51,227 nt of DNA from Acidimicrobiales bacterium. Lineage in GTDB: Bacteria > Actinomycetota > Acidimicrobiia > Acidimicrobiales > Aldehydirespiratoraceae. The stretch lies in assembly GCA_029263175.1 (NCBI GenBank), contig JAJCXZ010000109.1, forward strand, positions 1 to 51,227, read 5' to 3'. Below, piece by piece: positions 5,693 through 39,073 of the stretch; position 1 is the stretch's first letter; each line of letters begins with the position of its first letter. The position numbers and the translations under genes were made by a program. The notes beneath the pieces are model-generated. The model made no database searches and was not told the origin of the DNA. It saw only the letters and a program-made list of their open reading frames with translations.

Positions 5693-6451
5693 CTACCGCG
5701 TGAAAGACCGAACTGCGTCGAGTTCCTCGAAGACCCGTACCCCATCGCTCAGTGCTGTGATGATGTGGCCTTCCCCCTCGAAGATTTCTATCGTCGAGTC
5801 GATGCCGAGCTCGGTCATCGCCTCATTGGCGGCTTCCATCGGTGCGATCCAGCTGGGGTCGTTGCCGCCGACGAACATGCGGACAGGAATGTCGAGCAGA
5901 TCGGGAAATGCTGCGATCTCGTCTTCGGTGCGGGGGAAGCCGGGGAAAACAAGCATCGATTGCACTCGGTCGGGCACCCGTGCCGCGAGGGCGAATGTGC
6001 TGAGGCCGCCGTTGCTGATTCCGGCGACGTGGAATCGCCCGTTCTCCGGGGAGACCCACGTCTCGATCCAGTCGAGCACGGCGGGGAGAAGCTCGCCGGA
6101 TTCGTCGAACCACAGCGTGCCACCCTCGGGTGCGGCGGGGCTGAACACGACCCAGCCGCGGGCGACCGCCTCGGTGAGATAGGTCTGCGATGCAACCCGT
6201 TGGGTTGTGTCGAAGTCCTGACGGCCGGGCGGGAACGCCAGGAGTACGGGCGCGGCATCGCCCGGCAAGAATCCGTCCGGCGCGATGGTCACATAGTCGA
6301 CGGATTGTCCCTCGATCGAGAGCCGGCCGGTCGCAAGTGCGCCAGGATCGATCGAAACGTCAGCCTCGACGTCGGCGGCCGGCTCGGCATCGGAGGACGA
6401 GCAGCTCGCGGCAACGAGAGCCGCAGTAGTAAGCAGGACAAGAAGGCGCAT
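5693..6451 (-). CDS. Lipoprotein alpha/beta hydrolase (esterase-like)
   Basis: A 252-residue predicted lipoprotein: a hydrophobic N-terminus ends in a lipobox with Cys17, followed by a Ser/Asp/Ala-rich linker. The rest fits an alpha/beta hydrolase, with nucleophile elbow GISNGG near residue 145, a probable acid in VGGNDPS and a C-terminal His in EGEGHI. This arrangement resembles secreted polyhydroxyalkanoate-depolymerase/LpqC-type esterases. It ends 48 nt before the sugar ATPase gene on the same strand; the operator lies in that gap, so the two may be separately controlled. Substrate unknown. Confidence 0.75.
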   Translation of the reverse strand: MRLLVLLTTAALVAASCSSSDAEPAADVEADVSIDPGALATGRLSIEGQSVDYVTIAPDGFLPGDAAPVLLAFPPGRQDFDTTQRVASQTYLTEAVARGWVVFSPAAPEGGTLWFDESGELLPAVLDWIETWVSPENGRFHVAGISNGGLSTFALAARVPDRVQSMLVFPGFPRTEDEIAAFPDLLDIPVRMFVGGNDPSWIAPMEAANEAMTELGIDSTIEIFEGEGHIITALSDGVRVFEELDAVRSFTR

Positions 6452-30671: not shown

Positions 30672-30938
30672 GTGTCGTTTGATCTCGACGCCCCGTATCG
30701 CCTCCATGACCGGGTTGCGCTCCGACCCGAGCCGTTCGGCGCGCTCGCCTATCACTACGGCAACCGCCGGCTGAACTTCTTGCGGGCCCCTGAGCTCGTC
30801 ACCCTGGTGGAGTCACTCGGCGATCATCAGTCGGTTCGCGCCGCGCTCGCCGCATCCGATATCGAGGAACAGCGCTGGCCATCCTTTGAGAAGGCCCTTG
30901 CGTCTCTCGCAAAATCCGACGTTCTGGTGGCCGCATGA
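30672..30938 (+). CDS. mftB: Mycofactocin peptide chaperone MftB
   Basis: An 88-residue RiPP-recognition (PqqD-like) protein that holds the MftA leader for MftC. The conserved segment RPEPFGALAYHYGNRRLNFLRAPELV is present. The GTG at 30672 is preferred because an in-frame ATG at 30654 lies inside the mftA core codons. The stop overlaps the mftC start (ATGA), so mftB and mftC are translationally coupled. Confidence 0.95.
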   Translation: MSFDLDAPYRLHDRVALRPEPFGALAYHYGNRRLNFLRAPELVTLVESLGDHQSVRAALAASDIEEQRWPSFEKALASLAKSDVLVAA

Positions 30939-32119
30939 CCGACCTGGCGATCCCGCCGACGGCCGCCCCCGAGGGCCTTGTGCTCTCGCCGGTCAAGAAG
31001 AGCGGCCTTGGTGACCAGATGAAAGCAGGGCTCGACGCGCCGATCTGTCTGACCTGGGAGCTGACCTACGCCTGCAACCTCCAGTGCGTGCACTGCCTCT
31101 CGTCATCGGGCCGTCGCGATCCCGGCGAGCTCTCGACCGAGCAATGCGAAGCCGTGATCGATGAGCTGCAGCGGATGCAGGTCTTCTACATCAACGTCGG
31201 GGGCGGCGAACCCACGATCCGCCCCGACTTCTGGCATCTCGTCGACTACGCCGTCAGCCACGACGTCGGTGTGAAGTTCTCGACCAACGGTTCGCGCATC
31301 GACGCGAAGGTCGCGCAGCGCCTGGCCGGATCCGACTACATCGACGTCCAGATCTCGATTGACGGAGCCGACGCCGCCACCAACGATCACGTGCGTGGCG
31401 AGGGTTCCTTCGCCACGGCGATCGAGGCCATGGAGCAGCTCCAGGCCGCCGGCTTCGGCGAGTTCAAGATCTCGGTGGTGATGACCCGCCACAACCTCCC
31501 GCAGATCGAGGAGTTCAGGGCGCTCGCCGACCACTACGGCGCACAACTTCGGCTCACTCGCTTCCGGCCGTCTGGCCGCGGCGCCGACTCCTGGCACGAA
31601 CTCCATCCCACCGATGCGCAGCAGGTCGAGCTCTACCACTGGCTGCTCGACCATCCCGACACGCTGACCGGCGACTCCTTCTTCCACCTGTCCGCCCTCG
31701 GCGAACCGCTGCCGGGCCTCAACCTGTGCGGTGCCGGTCGAGTCGTCTGCCTCATCGACCCCCTCGGCGATGTCTATGCGTGCCCGTTTGTGCTGCACGA
31801 CGAGTTCAAGGCGGGTTCGGTGCTCGACGGCGGCGGCTTCCAGCAGGTCTGGCAGGAGAGCGATCTCTTCGCCGAACTGCGAGAGCCGCAATCGGCGGGC
31901 GCGTGTTCATCCTGCGGCCAGTTCGACGCTTGCCAGGGTGGCTGCATGGCCGCCAAGTTCTTCACCGGCATCCCGCTCGACGGCCCCGACCCCGAATGCG
32001 TCAACGGATACGGCGCCGACCTCGTGGCAGCGGCCAATGTGGCTGCTCGGCCTGCCGTCGGCAAGGACCACAGCCGCACCCGGGTAACCCTGGGGACGAA
32101 GCCGGCTTCGCTCGACTGA
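30935..32119 (+). CDS. mftC: Mycofactocin radical SAM maturase MftC
   Basis: A 394-residue radical SAM/SPASM enzyme. The SAM-cluster motif C-x3-C-x2-C is at Cys47, Cys51 and Cys54 (TYACNLQCVHC), followed by NVGGGEPT. The C-terminal SPASM cysteines lie in LNLCGAGRVVC, YACPF and CSSCGQFDACQGGC. It catalyses oxidative decarboxylation and lactam formation on the MftA C-terminal Val-Tyr. The final residues (RVTLGTKPASLD) resemble the peptide read from REP elements, see findings. Confidence 0.97.
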   Translation: MTDLAIPPTAAPEGLVLSPVKKSGLGDQMKAGLDAPICLTWELTYACNLQCVHCLSSSGRRDPGELSTEQCEAVIDELQRMQVFYINVGGGEPTIRPDFWHLVDYAVSHDVGVKFSTNGSRIDAKVAQRLAGSDYIDVQISIDGADAATNDHVRGEGSFATAIEAMEQLQAAGFGEFKISVVMTRHNLPQIEEFRALADHYGAQLRLTRFRPSGRGADSWHELHPTDAQQVELYHWLLDHPDTLTGDSFFHLSALGEPLPGLNLCGAGRVVCLIDPLGDVYACPFVLHDEFKAGSVLDGGGFQQVWQESDLFAELREPQSAGACSSCGQFDACQGGCMAAKFFTGIPLDGPDPECVNGYGADLVAAANVAARPAVGKDHSRTRVTLGTKPASLD

Positions 32120-32129
32120 TCCGCGCGAT

Positions 32130-32837
32130 TCAGCGACGCATCTGCATCAGGAGACGAAGGACGTACCAGAAGAGCATCATCACGCTGGTGAACAGGGTGA
32201 GTGACGCCGCCACGTGGGCCTGCACCGGGTACCGGCGAATGATGTTCTGCGTCTGATAGAGGATCGAGCCGCCAGCGAGGGCGATCATGGCAACCGAGAA
32301 CCAGACACCCAGGTTGAAGCCGAACAGGATGGCGCCCAGGATCAGCACCATGGCGGCGACGCCGCCGAACATGATCATCGGCCGAATGAAGGACAGGTCC
32401 TTGCGGGTGATCATCGCAATAACGGTGAGGCCGGCAAAGGCCACGGCGGTGAGAAGGGCAGCCGCGGCAACCGTGGTGCCGGCACTCTCGATTTCGAAGG
32501 CGTAGTAGAGGAACGGAGCGAAGATCAGCGCTTCGAGCGCCGCCATCCCGAAAAGGGCGCCGTACTGCTTCCCCGGGTTGAGCATGTCCATTGCGGCTTG
32601 GCCGACCATCCACTGGCCGACCATGAAGAGGCCCATGATCAGCAGCCAGCGAGAACTGCCGCCGGAAACGAAGTCGTAGATGCCCTCGGCGATGCCGGTG
32701 GTGAAGAAGAGCGCCTCGATGGCGACGAAGGCGGCGATGGCCCCCATCAGGTGCTGGTAGACGCGGACAACGAAGTCGCCGCGGGTGGTCTCGTCCAGCT
32801 CGATGACTGGTCGAAGATCAAGTTCCGAATGGCTCAT
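32130..32837 (-). CDS. Bax inhibitor-1/YccA-like membrane protein
   Basis: A 235-residue protein with seven predicted membrane helices in the BI-1 arrangement, a charged N-terminus of ~20 residues and a short C-terminal RLLMQMRR tail. ATG 32837 is chosen because helices begin soon after; ~100 upstream open codons carry no domain. It lies on the opposite strand inside the mycofactocin locus, 10 nt past the mftC stop. A calcium-leak or stress role is known for some family members; none is shown here. Confidence 0.85.
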   Translation of the reverse strand: MSHSELDLRPVIELDETTRGDFVVRVYQHLMGAIAAFVAIEALFFTTGIAEGIYDFVSGGSSRWLLIMGLFMVGQWMVGQAAMDMLNPGKQYGALFGMAALEALIFAPFLYYAFEIESAGTTVAAAALLTAVAFAGLTVIAMITRKDLSFIRPMIMFGGVAAMVLILGAILFGFNLGVWFSVAMIALAGGSILYQTQNIIRRYPVQAHVAASLTLFTSVMMLFWYVLRLLMQMRR

Positions 32838-33048
32838 TACCGCTCCTACTCGAGGTGAACTCAAGTGTAGATGACCGGCCGTAATAGTCCGCCTCGCTGG
32901 TCCCACCCCGTTCTGACCCCCGGTTTCCCACCGTAGACGGGGGTTGGCGGCAGCAATTTGGGGAGGGGTGGGATTTGTCGGCCCCGGCACTGTGGTGCCT
33001 CGGCCCGGTAGGGTGCCCGCGGTTCCCCCCTGAAACAGGAGTCTCATC

Positions 33049-33225
33049 ATGGGTATTTTCAGCAAGTTCAAGAAGGTCGCCAAGGACAACGCCGACAAGA
33101 TCGAAGACGGCATCGACAAGGCCGCCGACTTGGCCAAGGACAAGGTCGACGGTCACGACGACAAGATCGACATGGCCGCCGACAAGGCGCAGGATCTTCT
33201 CGACAAGGTCGACGGCGACGACTGA
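33049..33225 (+). CDS. Small helical antitoxin-like protein (Rv0909/MT0933 type)
   Basis: A 58-residue, highly charged protein (Lys and Asp rich) with the repeated pattern DKAADLAKDKV / DKAQDLLDKV, predicted to be one or two amphipathic helices. This matches the small antitoxin protein family MT0933-like, described from mycobacteria as the antitoxin of Rv0910. No toxin of that type lies next to it, so a free-standing stress or structural role is equally possible. A Shine-Dalgarno-like acaggag precedes the ATG. Confidence 0.75.
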   Translation: MGIFSKFKKVAKDNADKIEDGIDKAADLAKDKVDGHDDKIDMAADKAQDLLDKVDGDD

Positions 33226-33311
33226 ATCTGTTTGGCGGATGACGGCGGGGGTTCGCCCCCGCCGCCACCGCTACCCTCGGAGCTGAATTCGGCTCCGAGA
33301 GGTGACATACC

Positions 33312-34484
33312 GTGAGTAACGACTGGTTCGAGTCGGTTGCCGTCGCGCAAGAACGCGCGAGGAAGCGACTCCCTGCGTCTGTCTACGGGGCCATCATGGG
33401 CGGCACCGACGCCGGCATCTCACGAGCTGACAACGTCGATGCCTTTGGCGAACTCGGCCTTCGTCCGATCACGGCCGGCCAGCCCGCCGAGCGCGACATG
33501 AGCGTCACCGTGATGGGGCAACCCTCGTCGATGCCGGTCCTGATTTCGCCGACCGGTGTGCAGGCCGTGCACCCCGACGGGGAGGTTGCCGTCGCTCGCG
33601 CCTCAGCGGCTCGTGGCGTGCCGATGGGTTTGAGCTCGTTCGGCAGCAAGCCCATCGAAGAGGTCGCTGCCGCGAATCCGCAGACGTTCTTCCAGATCTA
33701 CTGGGCCGGTGATCGTGACTCGATGGTCGCCCGGTGTGAGCGCGCCAAGGCTGCGGGAGCCGTTGGCCTGATCCTCACCCTCGACTGGTCGTTCGTCCAC
33801 AGCCGCGACTGGGGTTCGCCGTCGATCCCCGACTCCATGGGGCTCAAGACGATGATCGAGCACGCCCCTGAGGTGCTGCGTCGTCCTGGCTATCTCGTGA
33901 GTTGGTTGCGCACGTTCCACCTCCCGACACTCGGGGTTCCCAACTTCGCCGTCGACGACAATCACGTGCCCGGTTTCTTCGAGGCCTACGGCACGTGGAT
34001 GGGCACGCCTCCGCCCACCTGGGACGACGTCGCATGGCTCGCCGATGCCTGGGATGGGCCGTTCATGGTGAAGGGCATCTATCGCGCTGACGAGGCCCGT
34101 CGCGCTCGCGACGCCGGTGCTACCGCAATCTCCGTCAGTACCCACGGCGGCAACAATCTCGACACCGTGCCGGCTGCGATCAGAGTTCTGCCCGAGATCG
34201 CCGATGCTGTCGGCGACGACATCGAGGTGTTGCTCGACTCGGGCATCCGCCGCGGCAGTGACGTGGTGAAGGCCGTCGCCCTCGGCGCCAAGGCCGTGAT
34301 GATCGGGCGTGCCTATCTCTTCGGCCTGGCGGCCAATGGTCAGGCCGGTGTGGAGAACGTGCTCGACGTGCTGCGGATGGGTATCGATTCCACGATGCTC
34401 GGGCTCGGCAAGTCGTGCCTTGCCGAGCTCGGCCCGGACGACCTGATCATCCCCGCCGGGTTCTCGCCACCTCGGCTCGACTAG
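33312..34484 (+). CDS. mftD: Mycofactocin FMN-dependent oxidoreductase MftD
   Basis: A 390-residue member of the lactate-dehydrogenase/glycolate-oxidase FMN family, in the branch found with mycofactocin (pre-mycofactocin synthase). FMN and catalytic features include LISPTGVQAVHPDGE, GLILTLDW, STHGGNN (His-Gly-Gly) and LLDSGIRRGSDVVKA with MIGRAYLFGLA. It oxidatively deaminates the MftC/MftE product to the redox-active alpha-keto amide. Start is GTG at 33312. Confidence 0.95.
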   Translation: MSNDWFESVAVAQERARKRLPASVYGAIMGGTDAGISRADNVDAFGELGLRPITAGQPAERDMSVTVMGQPSSMPVLISPTGVQAVHPDGEVAVARASAARGVPMGLSSFGSKPIEEVAAANPQTFFQIYWAGDRDSMVARCERAKAAGAVGLILTLDWSFVHSRDWGSPSIPDSMGLKTMIEHAPEVLRRPGYLVSWLRTFHLPTLGVPNFAVDDNHVPGFFEAYGTWMGTPPPTWDDVAWLADAWDGPFMVKGIYRADEARRARDAGATAISVSTHGGNNLDTVPAAIRVLPEIADAVGDDIEVLLDSGIRRGSDVVKAVALGAKAVMIGRAYLFGLAANGQAGVENVLDVLRMGIDSTMLGLGKSCLAELGPDDLIIPAGFSPPRLD

Positions 34485-34532
34485 GAGGGGTTCGCCATTT
34501 GGCCACGGTATCGGTGGGGTTACCCTCTGGCG

Positions 34533-35213
34533 ATGACCGACAGGACTTCCCGGCACCTTGGCGCGATGACGACGCGGGAGGCCGCGGCGGGTCGTTGGCA
34601 GTTGCTCATCCCGCTCGGATCGACCGAACAACACGGGCCGCATCTCCCACTCGATACCGACACCCGAATTGCGATCGGAGTGGCGGACCGGGCCGCCGCT
34701 GGCATTGCTGATGTGGTTGTGGCGCCGGCGCTGCCGATCAGCGCAGCTGGCGAGCATGCTGGTTTCGCCGGGACCCTGTCGATGGGAGCCGATGCAGTCA
34801 CCGCCATGCTCCTGGAGATCGTTCGCACCGCTGGACCAGAGTTCGCATCGATCACGGTGATCAACGGTCACGGTGGCAACTACGCCGCGGTGACAGCAGC
34901 AGTCGAGCGTTGCGCGTACGAGGGGCGGGCGCTGAGGGCTTGGTCGCCCGCGAATCTCGCGGGTGATGCCCACGCGGGCCGAACCGAGACAAGTGTCATG
35001 TTGGCGATCGCCCCCGAGTCGGTGCGGTTGGACCGGGCCGAGGCGGGGTCCACGGCCTCGATTGTCGAGATGATGCCCCAGCTTCGAGATGGGGGAGTAG
35101 CCGCGGTATCCCCCAACGGGGTGCTTGGCGACCCGGCCGGTGCCAGCCGCGAGGAAGGTGTCGCGATTCTCGAGACATGGGTCGCCGAAGTGGTGGCGAT
35201 GCTGCGGGGGTGA
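34533..35213 (+). CDS. mftE: Mycofactocin peptidase MftE (creatininase family)
   Basis: A 226-residue metallopeptidase of the creatininase fold. Metal ligands are visible in LGSTEQHGPHLPLDTD (Glu, His, Asp) and INGHGGN, with further family residues in GEHAGFAGT and DAHAGRTETS. It releases the modified Val-Tyr dipeptide from MftA after MftC. It follows mftD by 48 nt and precedes the SDR gene by 24 nt, forming a mftD-mftE-SDR transcription unit. Confidence 0.95.
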   Translation: MTDRTSRHLGAMTTREAAAGRWQLLIPLGSTEQHGPHLPLDTDTRIAIGVADRAAAGIADVVVAPALPISAAGEHAGFAGTLSMGADAVTAMLLEIVRTAGPEFASITVINGHGGNYAAVTAAVERCAYEGRALRAWSPANLAGDAHAGRTETSVMLAIAPESVRLDRAEAGSTASIVEMMPQLRDGGVAAVSPNGVLGDPAGASREEGVAILETWVAEVVAMLRG

Positions 35214-35237
35214 CGGCGTGTCTGTCACCATGAGGAC

Positions 35238-36005
35238 GTGAATCGACCTGTCGCCATCGTCACCGGAGCCGCACGAGGCATAGGTGCTGCGACGGTCGCG
35301 GCACTGGTGGTCGACGGTTGGCGTGTGGTCGCGGTCGACTCGTGCGCCGACGATTCAGCGGTCGGCTATCAGCAGGCCAGCCGGGCGGATCTCGACGCCG
35401 TCGTCACTGCCGGCGAAGGCGCCGTCACCGGTGTCGTCGCCGACGTGCGGGACAACGCCGCGCTCCGAGAGGCCCTCGCGACCGCCGGGCCGATCAACGC
35501 TCTCGTCACCTGCGCCGGAGTCGCGACCGGCGGTGGGCCGGTGTGGGACGCCACCGATGCCGAGTGGGAGGCCGCGATCGGTGTCAACCTGACCGGCACG
35601 TTCAACGCGATCCGTACGGTGGTTCCGTCCATCGTCGATGGTGGACGGGTGGTCGCCGTCGCTTCCGCGGCCGGCTCCCTGGGGCTGCGCCACATGGGCC
35701 CTTACGCCGCGGCCAAACACGGGCTGGTCGGTCTGATCCGGTCCTTGGCCGCGGATCTTGCCGGCACGGGTACCACGGCCAATGTGGTCAGCCCCGGCTC
35801 GACCGCCACCGCAGCGCTCGACGCGAGCGCCGAGATCTACGGTCTTGCCTCGATCGACGACTTCGTCCGTCACCAGGAGCCGCTCGGCCGCTTGATCGAA
35901 CCGACCGAGGTCGCCGCCACCATCGCCTGGCTCTGCTCGCCTGCCGCGTCTGCCATCACGGGAGCAGTGATCCCCGTCGACGGCGGGATGACCGCGACGC
36001 CCTAG
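35238..36005 (+). CDS. Mycofactocin-associated SDR oxidoreductase
   Basis: A 255-residue SDR with TGAARGIG (NAD binding), Ser in VASAAGS and YAAAKH (Tyr, Lys). After the second beta strand it carries an insert (SCADDSAVGYQQASRADLDA, residues ~35-54) characteristic of mycofactocin-coupled SDRs, which bury their NAD and pass electrons to mycofactocin. Start is GTG at 35238. Its substrate, probably an alcohol, is unknown. Confidence 0.9.
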   Translation: MNRPVAIVTGAARGIGAATVAALVVDGWRVVAVDSCADDSAVGYQQASRADLDAVVTAGEGAVTGVVADVRDNAALREALATAGPINALVTCAGVATGGGPVWDATDAEWEAAIGVNLTGTFNAIRTVVPSIVDGGRVVAVASAAGSLGLRHMGPYAAAKHGLVGLIRSLAADLAGTGTTANVVSPGSTATAALDASAEIYGLASIDDFVRHQEPLGRLIEPTEVAATIAWLCSPAASAITGAVIPVDGGMTATP

Positions 36006-36085: not shown

Positions 36086-37198
36086 ATGAAAACCAGGGCT
36101 GCGGTACTGCGGGAGATCGGTGCGCGGTGGAGTGTCGAGGAGATCGAGCTCGACGAGCCCAAGGCGGGCGAGATCCTCGTCAAGACACTCGCCGCGGGCA
36201 TGTGCCACTCCGACGAGCATGCCCACGACGGCTCGATGCCCGCCCCGATGCCGCTCATCGGCGGCCATGAGGGTGCCGGTGAAGTCATCGCCCTCGGTCC
36301 TGGTGTCACCGAGTTCGAGATCGGCGACCACATCGCCTGCTCGTTCATCCCGTCGTGCGGAAAGTGCACCTGGTGTGCCCGCGGTCAGCAGAACCTGTGT
36401 GATCTCGGCGCCAAGCTGATGGAACCCGGCATGATCGATGGCACCTATCGCCATCGCGATGCCGATGGCAATGACCTCACGCCGCTACTCAAGCTCGGCA
36501 CGTTCGCGGAGCACATGGTCCTCAGCGTCGACTCCGCGATCAAGATCGCCAACGACGTCCCCGCGGGTCCAGCGGCCCTCGTCAGCTGTGGTGTCGCCAC
36601 GGGCTACGGCTCGGCCGTCAACCGTGCGGATGTGACTGCGGGTGACACCGTGGTCGTCGTGGGCTGCGGTGGTCTCGGCACAGCCGCAATCCAGGGTGCC
36701 AAGATCGCGGGAGCGAAGAACGTCGTCGCCGTCGACCCGTCGGAGTTCAAGCGCGAGAGCGCCATGGAGTTCGGCGCCACCCACTCGGCCGACTCGATCG
36801 AGGACGCCATGGAGATGGTCGGCGCCATGACCGAGGGCGTGATGGCCGACAGCACGATCCTCACCCCTGGCACGCTCACCGGCGACTTCATCGCTCCAGC
36901 GCAGTTCATCACCCGCAAGGGCGGCACCATCGTCGCCACCGCAGTCGCTCCGGCCGCGCAGATGGACGTGCAGATGAACCTGTTCCTCTTCTCGATGATG
37001 AACCAGGAACTGAAGGGCTGCCTGTTCGGGTCATCGTCGCCCCGCAAGGAGATTCCGCATCTGCTGTCGATGTATCAGGCCGGTCAGCTGAAACTCGACG
37101 AGATGATCACCAACACCTACACGTTGGATCAGATCAACGAGGGTTACCAGGACATGCTTGACAACAAGAACATCCGCGGCGTCGTCACCTTCGACTGA
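36086..37198 (+). CDS. NDMA-dependent (mycofactocin-linked) zinc alcohol dehydrogenase
   Basis: A 370-residue MDR alcohol dehydrogenase. Catalytic zinc ligands are in MCHSDEH and GGHEGAGEV; the structural-zinc lobe is CGKCTWCARGQQNLC. The Rossmann motif is VGCGGLG. It resembles the NDMA-dependent alcohol dehydrogenase family that does not release its NADH and is found with mycofactocin genes. It is the last clear member of the locus; the preceding 80 nt contain a possible promoter. Confidence 0.9.
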   Translation: MKTRAAVLREIGARWSVEEIELDEPKAGEILVKTLAAGMCHSDEHAHDGSMPAPMPLIGGHEGAGEVIALGPGVTEFEIGDHIACSFIPSCGKCTWCARGQQNLCDLGAKLMEPGMIDGTYRHRDADGNDLTPLLKLGTFAEHMVLSVDSAIKIANDVPAGPAALVSCGVATGYGSAVNRADVTAGDTVVVVGCGGLGTAAIQGAKIAGAKNVVAVDPSEFKRESAMEFGATHSADSIEDAMEMVGAMTEGVMADSTILTPGTLTGDFIAPAQFITRKGGTIVATAVAPAAQMDVQMNLFLFSMMNQELKGCLFGSSSPRKEIPHLLSMYQAGQLKLDEMITNTYTLDQINEGYQDMLDNKNIRGVVTFD

Positions 37199-37208
37199 AC
37201 CTGGACCG

Positions 37209-38123
37209 ATGACTGCACTCGCCGACCCCGCGCTTCTCGCCGCGCTCGACGCCTCGATCGTGGGCCGCCGACGTGAGTTGGAGATCCTCGTTGCCGCGCT
37301 TGCGGCGAAACGTCATGTGCTGCTCGAGGGCCCGCCGGGCACGGGCAAGTCAACGATCTTGCGCGAGGTCGCGCGGGCCGCGGGCACGGGTTTCGTGTTC
37401 GTCGAGGGAAACGCCGAGCTCACGCCCGGGCGTCTCGCCGGCCAGTTCGACCCGTCGCGGGTGATGGAGGACGGCTACACGCCCGATGTGTTCGTCGACG
37501 GTCCGCTCGTCGAGGCACTGCGCAACGGCTCGCTTCTGTACGTCGAAGAACTGAACCGAGTGCCGGAGGAGACGGTCAACCTCCTCATCACCGTGATGTC
37601 GGAAGGCGAGCTGACGTTGCCTCGTCTCGGCCGGATCGAGGCGGCCGACGGCTTCATGCTGGTCGCGGCGATGAACCCGTTCGACAACATCGGTACAGCC
37701 CGGGTCTCCGGCGCGGTGTACGACCGTATGTGCCGGATTTCGATGGAGTATCAGACGCTCGATGACGAGTCCGACATCGTGGTCCGCCGCACGACCGCCG
37801 ACGACCGCCTACTGCGACGACGAGCGGTGATGACCACGCGCGCCACACGCACGCACAGCGACGTCCGCGTCGGCTCGTCGGTACGCGGCGCCATCGACCT
37901 GGTCGAAGTGGCCCACCAACTCGCCGCCATGCGAGGCCTCGATCCCACCGACTCCGAGGTCGGCCTCGACGCCGCGATCGTGTCGCTCTCGGGTCGGATT
38001 CGGCTCCACGAGGGCGGCGACAAGACGCCCGAGTCCGTGGTCCGTGAGATCTGGGATGCTGTCCTCGCCACCGAACAACCGCGTGAACCCGACGACGACT
38101 CGGGAAAAGCGACCGCCCCGTAA
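37209..38123 (+). CDS. MoxR/CobS-like AAA+ ATPase; likely 0-frame product of a frameshift gene
   Basis: A 304-residue AAA+ protein: Walker A GPPGTGKST (residues 41-49), Walker B LLYVEELNR (~residue 113), and sensor segment VAAMNPFDNIG. It belongs to the MoxR/NorQ/CobS range that works with vWA-domain partners as chelatase or metal-insertion chaperones. The vWA gene follows in the -1 frame without a usual start codon, and a slippery heptamer plus hairpin overlies this gene's stop (38102-38129). Two products, ATPase alone and ATPase-vWA fusion of ~621 residues, are therefore likely. It begins 11 nt after the alcohol dehydrogenase stop. Confidence 0.9.
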   Translation: MTALADPALLAALDASIVGRRRELEILVAALAAKRHVLLEGPPGTGKSTILREVARAAGTGFVFVEGNAELTPGRLAGQFDPSRVMEDGYTPDVFVDGPLVEALRNGSLLYVEELNRVPEETVNLLITVMSEGELTLPRLGRIEAADGFMLVAAMNPFDNIGTARVSGAVYDRMCRISMEYQTLDDESDIVVRRTTADDRLLRRRAVMTTRATRTHSDVRVGSSVRGAIDLVEVAHQLAAMRGLDPTDSEVGLDAAIVSLSGRIRLHEGGDKTPESVVREIWDAVLATEQPREPDDDSGKATAP

Positions 38124-38129
38124 GGGGCG
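38102..38129 (+). promoter_or_regulatory. Predicted -1 programmed ribosomal frameshift signal
   Basis: Heptamer G-GGA-AAA (38102-38108) is in the exact X-XXY-YYZ phase of the ATPase frame, so both tRNAs re-pair after a -1 slip (GGG-AAA). Five nucleotides later a stem CGCCCC/GGGGCG (38114-38119, 38124-38129) closes a GTAA tetraloop that holds the 0-frame stop TAA. The -1 frame then runs open through the vWA domain. Confidence 0.7.
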
Positions 38130-39073
38130 ACTCCGGTGGCGCTCCGATCGTCCTGGAGGGCGAAGACGCGCAGCAGGCGCTCGCCGACGACAACCGACGC
38201 ACGACCCCGCGCCCGCAGTTGGCTCGCGATCCGAAGTTCGATGAGATCAGCCCGCAGGTCGGTCAGATCAACGAGGACGCGCTGGCCGACTTGGTCGATG
38301 AGAATCCCGATCACGCACTCTCGATGTTGGCCGAGATGCGCAACGCCACCGATCAGGAGCTGGCGGCCATGGCGGCGCGGATCGCGGGGCGGTTGGTTCT
38401 CGACGTCGCCCGCGCCGGCCCTCGTCAGGCCCGCGGTATCGGCACCATGGTTTCGTCTCCGGCCGATCGCTTCGAGGGAGATCTCGACCTCGAACGCAGC
38501 CTCGACGGTCTGATCCAGGCGCGTGCGGCAGGCGAACTCGTCGATGCGGGCGACCTGTCGGTGCGTCACTGGACGCGGCCGGCCACGGCCGTGACCTTGG
38601 TGGTCGATCGCAGCGGATCGATGAGCGGGCGGCGTTTGGCGACCGCCGCTGTTGCTGCGGCAGCCTGCGCGTATCGAGCCCCGATCGACTGGTCGGTGCT
38701 CGCCTTCGCGGATCGGGTGATCGCGGTGAAGAGCCAGCACGATGCCCGATCGCCGGCCGCGGTGGTCGACGACCTGCTCCGGCTCCGTGGCCAAGGCACC
38801 ACTGATCTCGCCGGCGCTCTGCGAGCCGCGGCAACCCAGCTGGAGCGCTCACGAGCCAAGCGCCGCGTCACGATTCTCATGTCGGATTGTCGAGCGACGA
38901 CCGGCGCTGAAGCGGTGCCAATCGCTCGCGGCCTTGACGAGCTCTGCATCCTCGCCCCCGCCGACGACGACGCCGATGCGGTCAGGTTCGCAAGGTCGGT
39001 CGGCGCCCGCATCGCCTCTATCGACGGCCCAAGCGAGATCCCCGCCGCCTTGCTCCGCGTTCTCGACAAGTAA
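38108..39073 (+). CDS. vWA-domain protein, probably translated by -1 frameshift from the AAA ATPase gene
   Basis: The frame stays open from a TGA at 38084 to 39073. There is no ATG, GTG or TTG before a TTG at 38219, and that TTG has no Shine-Dalgarno. The vWA domain (last ~170 residues) has the MIDAS motif VDRSGSMSG (Asp, Ser, Ser), the Thr in GQGTTDLAGA and the Asp in MSDCRATTG, so metal binding looks intact. The preceding ~110 residues are acidic and helical. Read by frameshift it adds 321 residues to 300 of the ATPase. Independent start at TTG 38219 (284 residues) is the alternative. The TAA stop lies in REP copy 7. Confidence 0.8.
   Translation, partial: SDRPVRGDSGGAPIVLEGEDAQQALADDNRRTTPRPQLARDPKFDEISPQVGQINEDALADLVDENPDHALSMLAEMRNATDQELAAMAARIAGRLVLDVARAGPRQARGIGTMVSSPADRFEGDLDLERSLDGLIQARAAGELVDAGDLSVRHWTRPATAVTLVVDRSGSMSGRRLATAAVAAAACAYRAPIDWSVLAFADRVIAVKSQHDARSPAAVVDDLLRLRGQGTTDLAGALRAAATQLERSRAKRRVTILMSDCRATTGAEAVPIARGLDELCILAPADDDADAVRFARSVGARIASIDGPSEIPAALLRVLDK

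Follow-up and report, generated by a model that had tools for sequence, protein, structure and literature searches.

Organization of the locus

The DNA analyzed here, which we refer to as the window, is a stretch of 51,227 nt from an Acidimicrobiales bacterium and represents contig 109 of a 4.4-Mb assembly (111 contigs, 97% complete). Within it, the gene for an AAA+ ATPase runs into a second reading frame that encodes a vWA domain. The features at their junction are as follows.

37209–38123, + strand: ORF of an AAA+ (MoxR-like) ATPase, 304 aa; ATG at 37209, stop TAA at 38121–38123; Pfam AAA_5, 5.4e-24
38102–38108, + strand: candidate slippery heptamer GGGAAAA, read directly and conserved in phase among relatives
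38109–38113, + strand: spacer of 5 nt, read directly (5–7 nt in 88 of 105 stem-bearing relatives)
38114–38129, + strand: stem-loop CGCCCC(GTAA)GGGGCG; GC stem of 6 bp with arms at 38114–38119 and 38124–38129
38108–39073, + strand: −1 frame with linker and vWA domain, 321 aa of a predicted 621-aa fusion; VWA_CoxE, 3.9e-11

Read directly from the window, the ATPase frame at the site is ..TCG GGA AAA GCG.., which gives the heptamer the phase G_GGA_AAA, and the ATPase stop (38121–38123) falls within the GTAA loop at 38120–38123. The vWA frame is −1, is open from 38087 to its stop at 39071–39073, and has the TTG at 38219 as its first ATG, GTG or TTG. The predicted products of the locus are 304 aa and 300 + 321 = 621 aa in length. 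A first-pass annotation of the same DNA had described the G-GGA-AAA phase, the 5-nt spacer, the 6-bp stem and the TAA within the GTAA loop, and our reading agrees with it letter for letter; the same holds for its account of a −1 vWA frame that is open over the junction and lacks an ATG or GTG start, with TTG 38219 as the first candidate, and for its products of about 304 and 621 residues.

Taken alone, the site is unremarkable. GGGAAAA is not enriched in the window (2 copies observed, 2.17 expected), and the hairpin, at −17.6 kcal/mol, has a z of −0.84 and is not significant by itself; the case for function thus rests on comparison. The only other copy of GGGAAAA in the window lies at 5943–5949.

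Reading frames in related genomes

Relatives were collected by an ATPase search of 61 genomes (the window's own and 60 relatives) and with a profile, A1, built from 22 ATPase sequences. Searched against GTDB contigs, the profile gave 162 loci, of which 80 were kept; at 1e-60 it matched 66 of 395 genomes from the class, and at 1e-40 it matched 33 of 396 genomes from the phylum. Cultured carriers of the gene include Geodermatophilus sabuli and Aciditerrimonas ferrireducens. ATPase domains below 150 bits were dropped before counting. Removal of identical inner ATPase DNA reduced 178 loci with a strong ATPase domain to 150 distinct ATPases, and exclusion of L037 and L089, which lie at contig ends without a vWA domain, left 148 ATPase–vWA pairs, the window's included.

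Relative to the ATPase, the vWA frame is −1 in 125 of these 148 distinct pairs, the same in 21 and +1 in 2. Two doubtful pairs were kept among the 125: L201, whose vWA domain is 1.1 kb off and belongs to the next gene, and L206, a distant paralogue with a 52-bit vWA match. The 21 same-frame rows comprise separate ORFs in L036 and L184 and one-ORF fusions in the other 19. On an ATPase tree of 147 of the 148 rows (FastTree; 50 of 144 inner branches open, some branches long), we counted 8 changes between shifted and fused forms, with 2 further rows left out.

Conservation of the slippery heptamer

The heptamer singled out in the first-pass annotation is conserved in orthologues. An in-phase X_XXY_YYZ motif with A or T in the second triplet was found near the end of the ATPase frame in 112 of the 125 −1 pairs; length-matched control windows taken from within these 112 ATPase genes contain one in 9 of 448 cases. 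GGGAAAA accounts for 101 of the 112, CCCAAAA for 7, TTTTTTC for 3 and AAAAAAA for 1. In these genes lysine is encoded by AAA in 174 of 744 cases and glycine by GGA in 647 of 5261, and from this codon usage GGGAAAA is expected at a given Gly-Lys with a frequency of only about 0.010 (~1%). Over 205,373 nt elsewhere in the 112 genes there are 4 more copies of GGGAAAA, none of them in the slip phase. Judged against codon usage, the heptamer is conserved at synonymous positions, beyond coding need.

The X_XXY_YYZ motif is absent from 13 of the 125 −1 pairs, the doubtful L201 and L206 among them. GGGGGAA is common to L059, L069, L109 and L195, where a TGA follows at most one codon later with a GC stem behind it, and this arrangement is perhaps one of single-tRNA slippage. 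The junction of L161 has GAAAAAA, and no evident slippery motif was seen at the junctions of L052, L055 and L060. GGAAAAA is found in L030, L032 and L065, a small clade whose sisters have GGGAAAA and in which the stem and the −1 frame are kept.

The GGAAAAA clade provides a natural variant of the putative slippery site. In L082, L085 and L088, from a more distant Pseudonocardiaceae branch, we found TTTTTTC in phase and no adjoining dehydrogenase of the kind described below; these loci may represent a sister system that has a slip site of its own.

The downstream stem and upstream sequence

Between 3 and 14 nt downstream, a perfectly paired stem of 5 bp or more begins in 105 of the 112 genes, with 44 different 5′ arms. 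Of these 105 genes, 88 have a spacer of 5–7 nt and 64 a 4-nt loop. A single register, with its start at +6 and a loop of 4, is fully paired in 62 of 112 genes; the median across all registers is 1. The stem read in the window is in this sense conserved in orthologues.

The background for such stems is high, with at least 5 bp of pairing in 37.9% of mononucleotide shuffles and in 34–76% of sequences at nine other positions of these genes. Offset −240 equals the site in its frequency of stems of at least 6 bp (0.60) and slightly exceeds it in those of at least 7 bp (0.30 versus 0.28), so that stem length by itself does not distinguish the site. Folding energies of 36-nt windows, sampled every 20 nt between offsets −240 and +300, average −15.9 kcal/mol at the site, and the averages at the other offsets range from −8.1 to −12.9 kcal/mol; the mean site z relative to mononucleotide shuffles is only −1.03, compared with −0.14 for a control at +120.

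Variation among the stems was also observed. In 26 genes a 0-frame TGA lies one codon past the heptamer, and their stem sequences vary. Within one clade the same stem pair is G-C (L034), G-U (L157) or A-U (L062, L063), a two-sided change with an intermediate. Conservation of the GCCCC/GGGGC arms may be due in part to coding. In a raw count, an SD-like motif lies 6–17 nt upstream of the heptamer in 51 of 112 genes, with no clear pattern.

Fused, inverted and duplicated architectures

Seven loci form a clade on the ATPase tree in which the arrangement is inverted (L068, L070, L071, L073, L074, L076 and L079; Pseudonocardiales, a Nocardiopsaceae bacterium, a Modestobacter and two unplaced Actinomycetes). 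L068 is from Pseudonocardia autotrophica. In-phase GGGAAAA persists throughout this clade though the ATPase frame continues past the junction, into the vWA domain in 6 of the 7, and it is the −1 frame that stops behind the heptamer (TGA at +2 nt in 6, TAG at +14 in 1), again with a predicted structure downstream. The vWA frame of L071 is +1, and this locus may hold an assembly error. From these sequences we infer that frameshifting in the inverted clade would yield the short form, as it does in E. coli dnaX, a mirror image and a natural swap of frameshift polarity. In dnaX, long and short forms (tau and gamma) come from one gene, and both polarities are described in the available text of PMC5009743; the gene and its function are unrelated, and the site there is A_AAA_AAG.

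The fused genes L179 and L180 have AAAAAAA with a −1 TGA at +5, and AAAAAAA also stands at the site of L207; other fused genes (e.g. L080 and L081) have no such site. In two genomes of the phylum, G648 and G481, an ATPase-only ORF lies directly before an ATPase–vWA ORF, and both forms would be supplied by tandem genes. That evolution has repeatedly maintained a short and a long form argues strongly for a need of both.

Translation of the −1 frame

Separate vWA genes are usual in MoxR systems, and the distant relatives L036 and L184 have separate ORFs. Two separate proteins would also be made here if ribosomes began the vWA ORF after the ATPase stop, by termination–reinitiation or at an internal or non-canonical start codon. 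In favor of this, 36 of the 112 genes have an ATG, GTG or TTG of the vWA frame no more than 60 nt from the slip; the commonest start position, +231, is a start in 33 of 112. SD-like motifs precede some vWA-frame start up to +180 in 15 of 112 genes; because even the ATPase gene is seldom preceded by such a motif (10 of 103), its absence before the vWA frame says little. In the window and three congeners, the first vWA-frame starts lie at +117, +180, +180 and +51 from the heptamer. Position +180 is a start in three of the four congeners, another point for separate translation, but not in the window, and the first start common to all four is an ATG at +222, 75 codons into the vWA frame. The missing start noted in the first-pass annotation has its counterpart here in that no start near the junction is shared by all four.

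We compared the four congeners over the 39 codons that extend from the slip to the window's first start. In the −1 frame dN/dS is ~0.05–0.11, with 6–15 synonymous and 2 non-synonymous changes per pair, and when the same DNA is read in frame 0, most of those changes become non-synonymous. By this measure the −1 frame is under purifying selection straight after the slip. The model of the vWA protein (mean pLDDT 88) is ordered from about residue 13, is weaker near residues 101–120, and has a helix at residues 21–30 that a start at TTG 38219 (residue 40) would remove.

Separate translation is made improbable by the late position of the shared start, by constraint on the −1 frame from the slip itself together with the helix at residues 21–30, and by the heptamer kept at synonymous positions. 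Furthermore, the position of the 0-frame stop varies between +10 and +52, and in one case is +100, with the vWA frame always at −1, and 19 relatives are one-ORF fusions. The comparison of relatives strongly supports the frameshift interpretation, and we consider it very probable that this one gene specifies two proteins by programmed −1 ribosomal frameshifting. Ribosomes that keep to the ATPase frame would decode GGA AAA and terminate at the TAA within the loop of the hairpin, producing the 304-aa AAA+ ATPase, while a fraction would slip back one base on G_GGA_AAA, aided by the GC hairpin 5 nt downstream, and continue to a 621-aa ATPase–linker–vWA protein.

In the tandem slip, tRNA-Gly(UCC) would re-pair from GGA to GGG and tRNA-Lys(UUU) from AAA to AAA. 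We typed the tRNAs of the window's genome (loci for 30 of 46 tRNA matches, plus three pattern hits) and found at least two tRNA-Lys(UUU), one tRNA-Lys(CUU), and tRNA-Gly with the anticodons UCC, CCC and GCC. The presence of tRNA-Lys(UUU) and tRNA-Gly(UCC) would suit tandem slippage on G_GGA_AAA; tRNA-Lys(CUU) would make AAG a poorer site, which may explain why AAA and not AAG is kept. Counting against frameshifting, G_GG.A_AA.A was inefficient in earlier tests in E. coli, where X_XX.A_AA.G sites are best, according to the available text of PMC4066793. The sequence signals, their conservation, the coding selection, the alternative architectures, the neighborhood and the fold likeness are observed, and from them we infer slippage in vivo; its rate, the co-assembly and ring stoichiometry of both products, and their client are likewise inferences.

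Transcriptional rather than ribosomal slippage as the source of the shift is less probable still. AAAAAAA at the sites of L179, L180 and L207 would favor it, but the common site has only four A, and the runs given for transcriptional slippage in excerpts of PMC3711429 and PMC5009743 are >7 A, >8 T, or 9 A/T; the CCCAAAA and TTTTTTC variants, moreover, obey the tandem-slip rule in phase. Decay of the gene, or a sequencing error in an assembly of 111 contigs, can be dismissed as the origin of a functionless frame break, since the same break occurs in 125 of 148 distinct pairs, including named isolates and the single-contig genomes G010 and G042.

Identity of the two proteins

The ATPase is AAA_5/MoxR-like and the vWA protein CoxE-like by Pfam, and the MIDAS residues DRSGS, T and D are present in the latter by eye. 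In sequence profile comparisons the nearest solved relatives of the ATPase are midasin, NorQ and CbbQ, with CobS weaker, and the vWA sequence matches CobT (1.2e-5), not NorD. Foldseek with the vWA model returned the NorD chains of NorQ–NorD complexes first (best E 3.7e-10, TM 0.45 by query length), followed by the Rea1/MDN1 MIDAS. Among the best 50 rows of VIA-align, in which mainly residues 107–323 were compared, there were generic vWA domains and no NorD. Taken together, profiles and model suggest a MoxR-type AAA+ protein with a vWA partner, resembling NorQ/NorD. The first-pass annotation had called the pair MoxR/CobS-like; the MoxR part stands, with NorQ and CbbQ nearest besides midasin, while by curated cut-offs the ATPase is neither ChlD nor CobS.

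Several named families were considered and rejected. For ChlD/BchD and cobaltochelatase, the scores are 37.7 bits against a cut-off of 499.55 (TIGR02031) and 34.1 bits against 779.45 (TIGR02442), and a check of the whole genome for ChlD and CobS gave nothing over cut-off. GvpN scored 69.3 against 266.8 bits, and the MadB family AAA ATPase NF047784 gave a partial match of 39.5 bits against 475, so the protein is not a member.

The likeness to NorQ/NorD and CbbQ, as these appear in the available text of PMC9976466 and PMC13036017, lies in the nearest solved ATPases besides midasin and in NorD as the first structural match of the vWA model. In those systems the vWA component is a protein of its own, whereas here frameshifting would append it to the ATPase. 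Each NorQ hexamer binds a single NorD (PMC9976466, in part). By analogy, a minor frameshift product would give a similar imbalance, and the short and long products would co-assemble into an AAA+ ring with few vWA arms, as in NorQ6–NorD1.

The first report on frameshifted chlD reportedly dates from 2020. As the first-pass annotation had noted, the chlD group is a precedent for −1 frameshifting: excerpts of PMC9227772 and PMC3711429 describe a −1 shift that gives the small and medium chelatase subunits from the same mRNA, as well as fused and duplicated relatives, and the latter gives 10–63% frameshifting in E. coli for poly-A sites. The present locus resembles frameshifted chlD in having one gene, a probable −1 shift, two predicted subunits, and fused and duplicated relatives. 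It differs in its site (G_GGA_AAA here, a poly-A run there), in scoring below the ChlD cut-offs, in its linkage to an alcohol dehydrogenase, and in having one clade with inverted polarity.

Genomic neighborhood

Upstream of the ATPase gene lie the following genes.

30935–32119, + strand: MftC radical SAM maturase (TIGR03962, 620 bits; cut-off 265)
33312–34484, + strand: MftD (TIGR03966, 648 bits; cut-off 471)
34533–35213, + strand: MftE (TIGR03964, 258 bits; cut-off 172)
35238–36005, + strand: mycofactocin-coupled SDR (TIGR04504, 288 bits; cut-off 250)
36086–37198, + strand: NDMA-dependent alcohol dehydrogenase (TIGR03989, 518 bits; cut-off 440)

The mycofactocin cluster at 30935–36005 (MftC, MftD, MftE and SDR), with all members over their NCBIfam cut-offs, precedes the dehydrogenase, and 10 nt separate the dehydrogenase stop from the ATPase ATG. 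In 113 of the 148 pairs a same-strand homologue of this dehydrogenase ends within 400 nt upstream of the ATPase gene, and usually within 100 nt. The remaining 35 lack a scored dehydrogenase upstream, only 2 of them for want of DNA (<450 nt). In nine pairs outside the 113 an SDR 45–52% identical to the window's mycofactocin-coupled SDR is found there instead, with MftE directly downstream in seven of the nine.

Across the 395 genomes of the class, the dehydrogenase (E ≤ 1e-115) is present in 65 of 66 genomes with the ATPase and in 49 of 329 without it, an association among related genomes for which p-values overstate independence. The exception, G425, has a dehydrogenase-like stretch just upstream of its ATPase, cut by the contig end (L167). 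Direct adjacency in Acidimicrobiia and Actinomycetes does not depend on that test. MftD is over its cut-off in 32 of the 66 genomes with the ATPase and 27 of the 329 others. Dependence on mycofactocin itself is only partly supported, since 34 of the 66 ATPase genomes have no MftD over cut-off, and the dehydrogenase is thus the tighter link. In the ATPase genomes without MftD, the dehydrogenase may pass its electrons to a different acceptor, or the mycofactocin genes may have been missed or be absent from the assembly. The description of the pair as mycofactocin-adjacent in the first-pass annotation is right for the window, where the cluster lies upstream, and too narrow for the relatives, where the tight link is to the NDMA-dependent alcohol dehydrogenase.

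Discussion

NDMA-dependent alcohol dehydrogenases do not exchange their cofactor. The neighborhood points to the upstream dehydrogenase as the client of the AAA+/vWA pair, and we think it reasonably likely that the pair is its chaperone or activase. It would most likely act by NorQD-type remodelling of the nicotinoprotein dehydrogenase, for example in metal or cofactor (NAD) loading, or in repair. With slightly less confidence, yet still on balance, we favor a broader model in which these genes form a hitherto undescribed chaperone system of actinobacteria that serves nicotinoprotein alcohol dehydrogenases, often those linked to mycofactocin. In this model the −1 shift would set the number of vWA arms per AAA+ ring, and the two-form output would be kept by a −1 shift to the long form, by an inverted shift to the short form, or by duplication.

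Among the matches listed in the open-licence literature, there was no report of frameshifting in this AAA+/vWA family, and none of a link between the family and mycofactocin or NDMA-dependent dehydrogenases; the view in the first-pass annotation that this is not a described case agrees with those matches. Known from chlD is −1 frameshifting as such, and new here are the family, the slippery site and the neighborhood. If the interpretation is correct, recoding would provide both subunits in a further AAA+/vWA family in addition to chlD, which suggests that the unequal number of ATPase and vWA components is what is selected. It would also provide a concrete maturation or repair factor for NDMA-dependent alcohol dehydrogenases. 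Gene finders without a frameshift model will split the protein in two in many Actinomycetota. The window's genome contains three NDMA-dependent alcohol dehydrogenase matches over cut-off (on C43, C28 and C109), and the ATPase gene lies behind the C109 copy.
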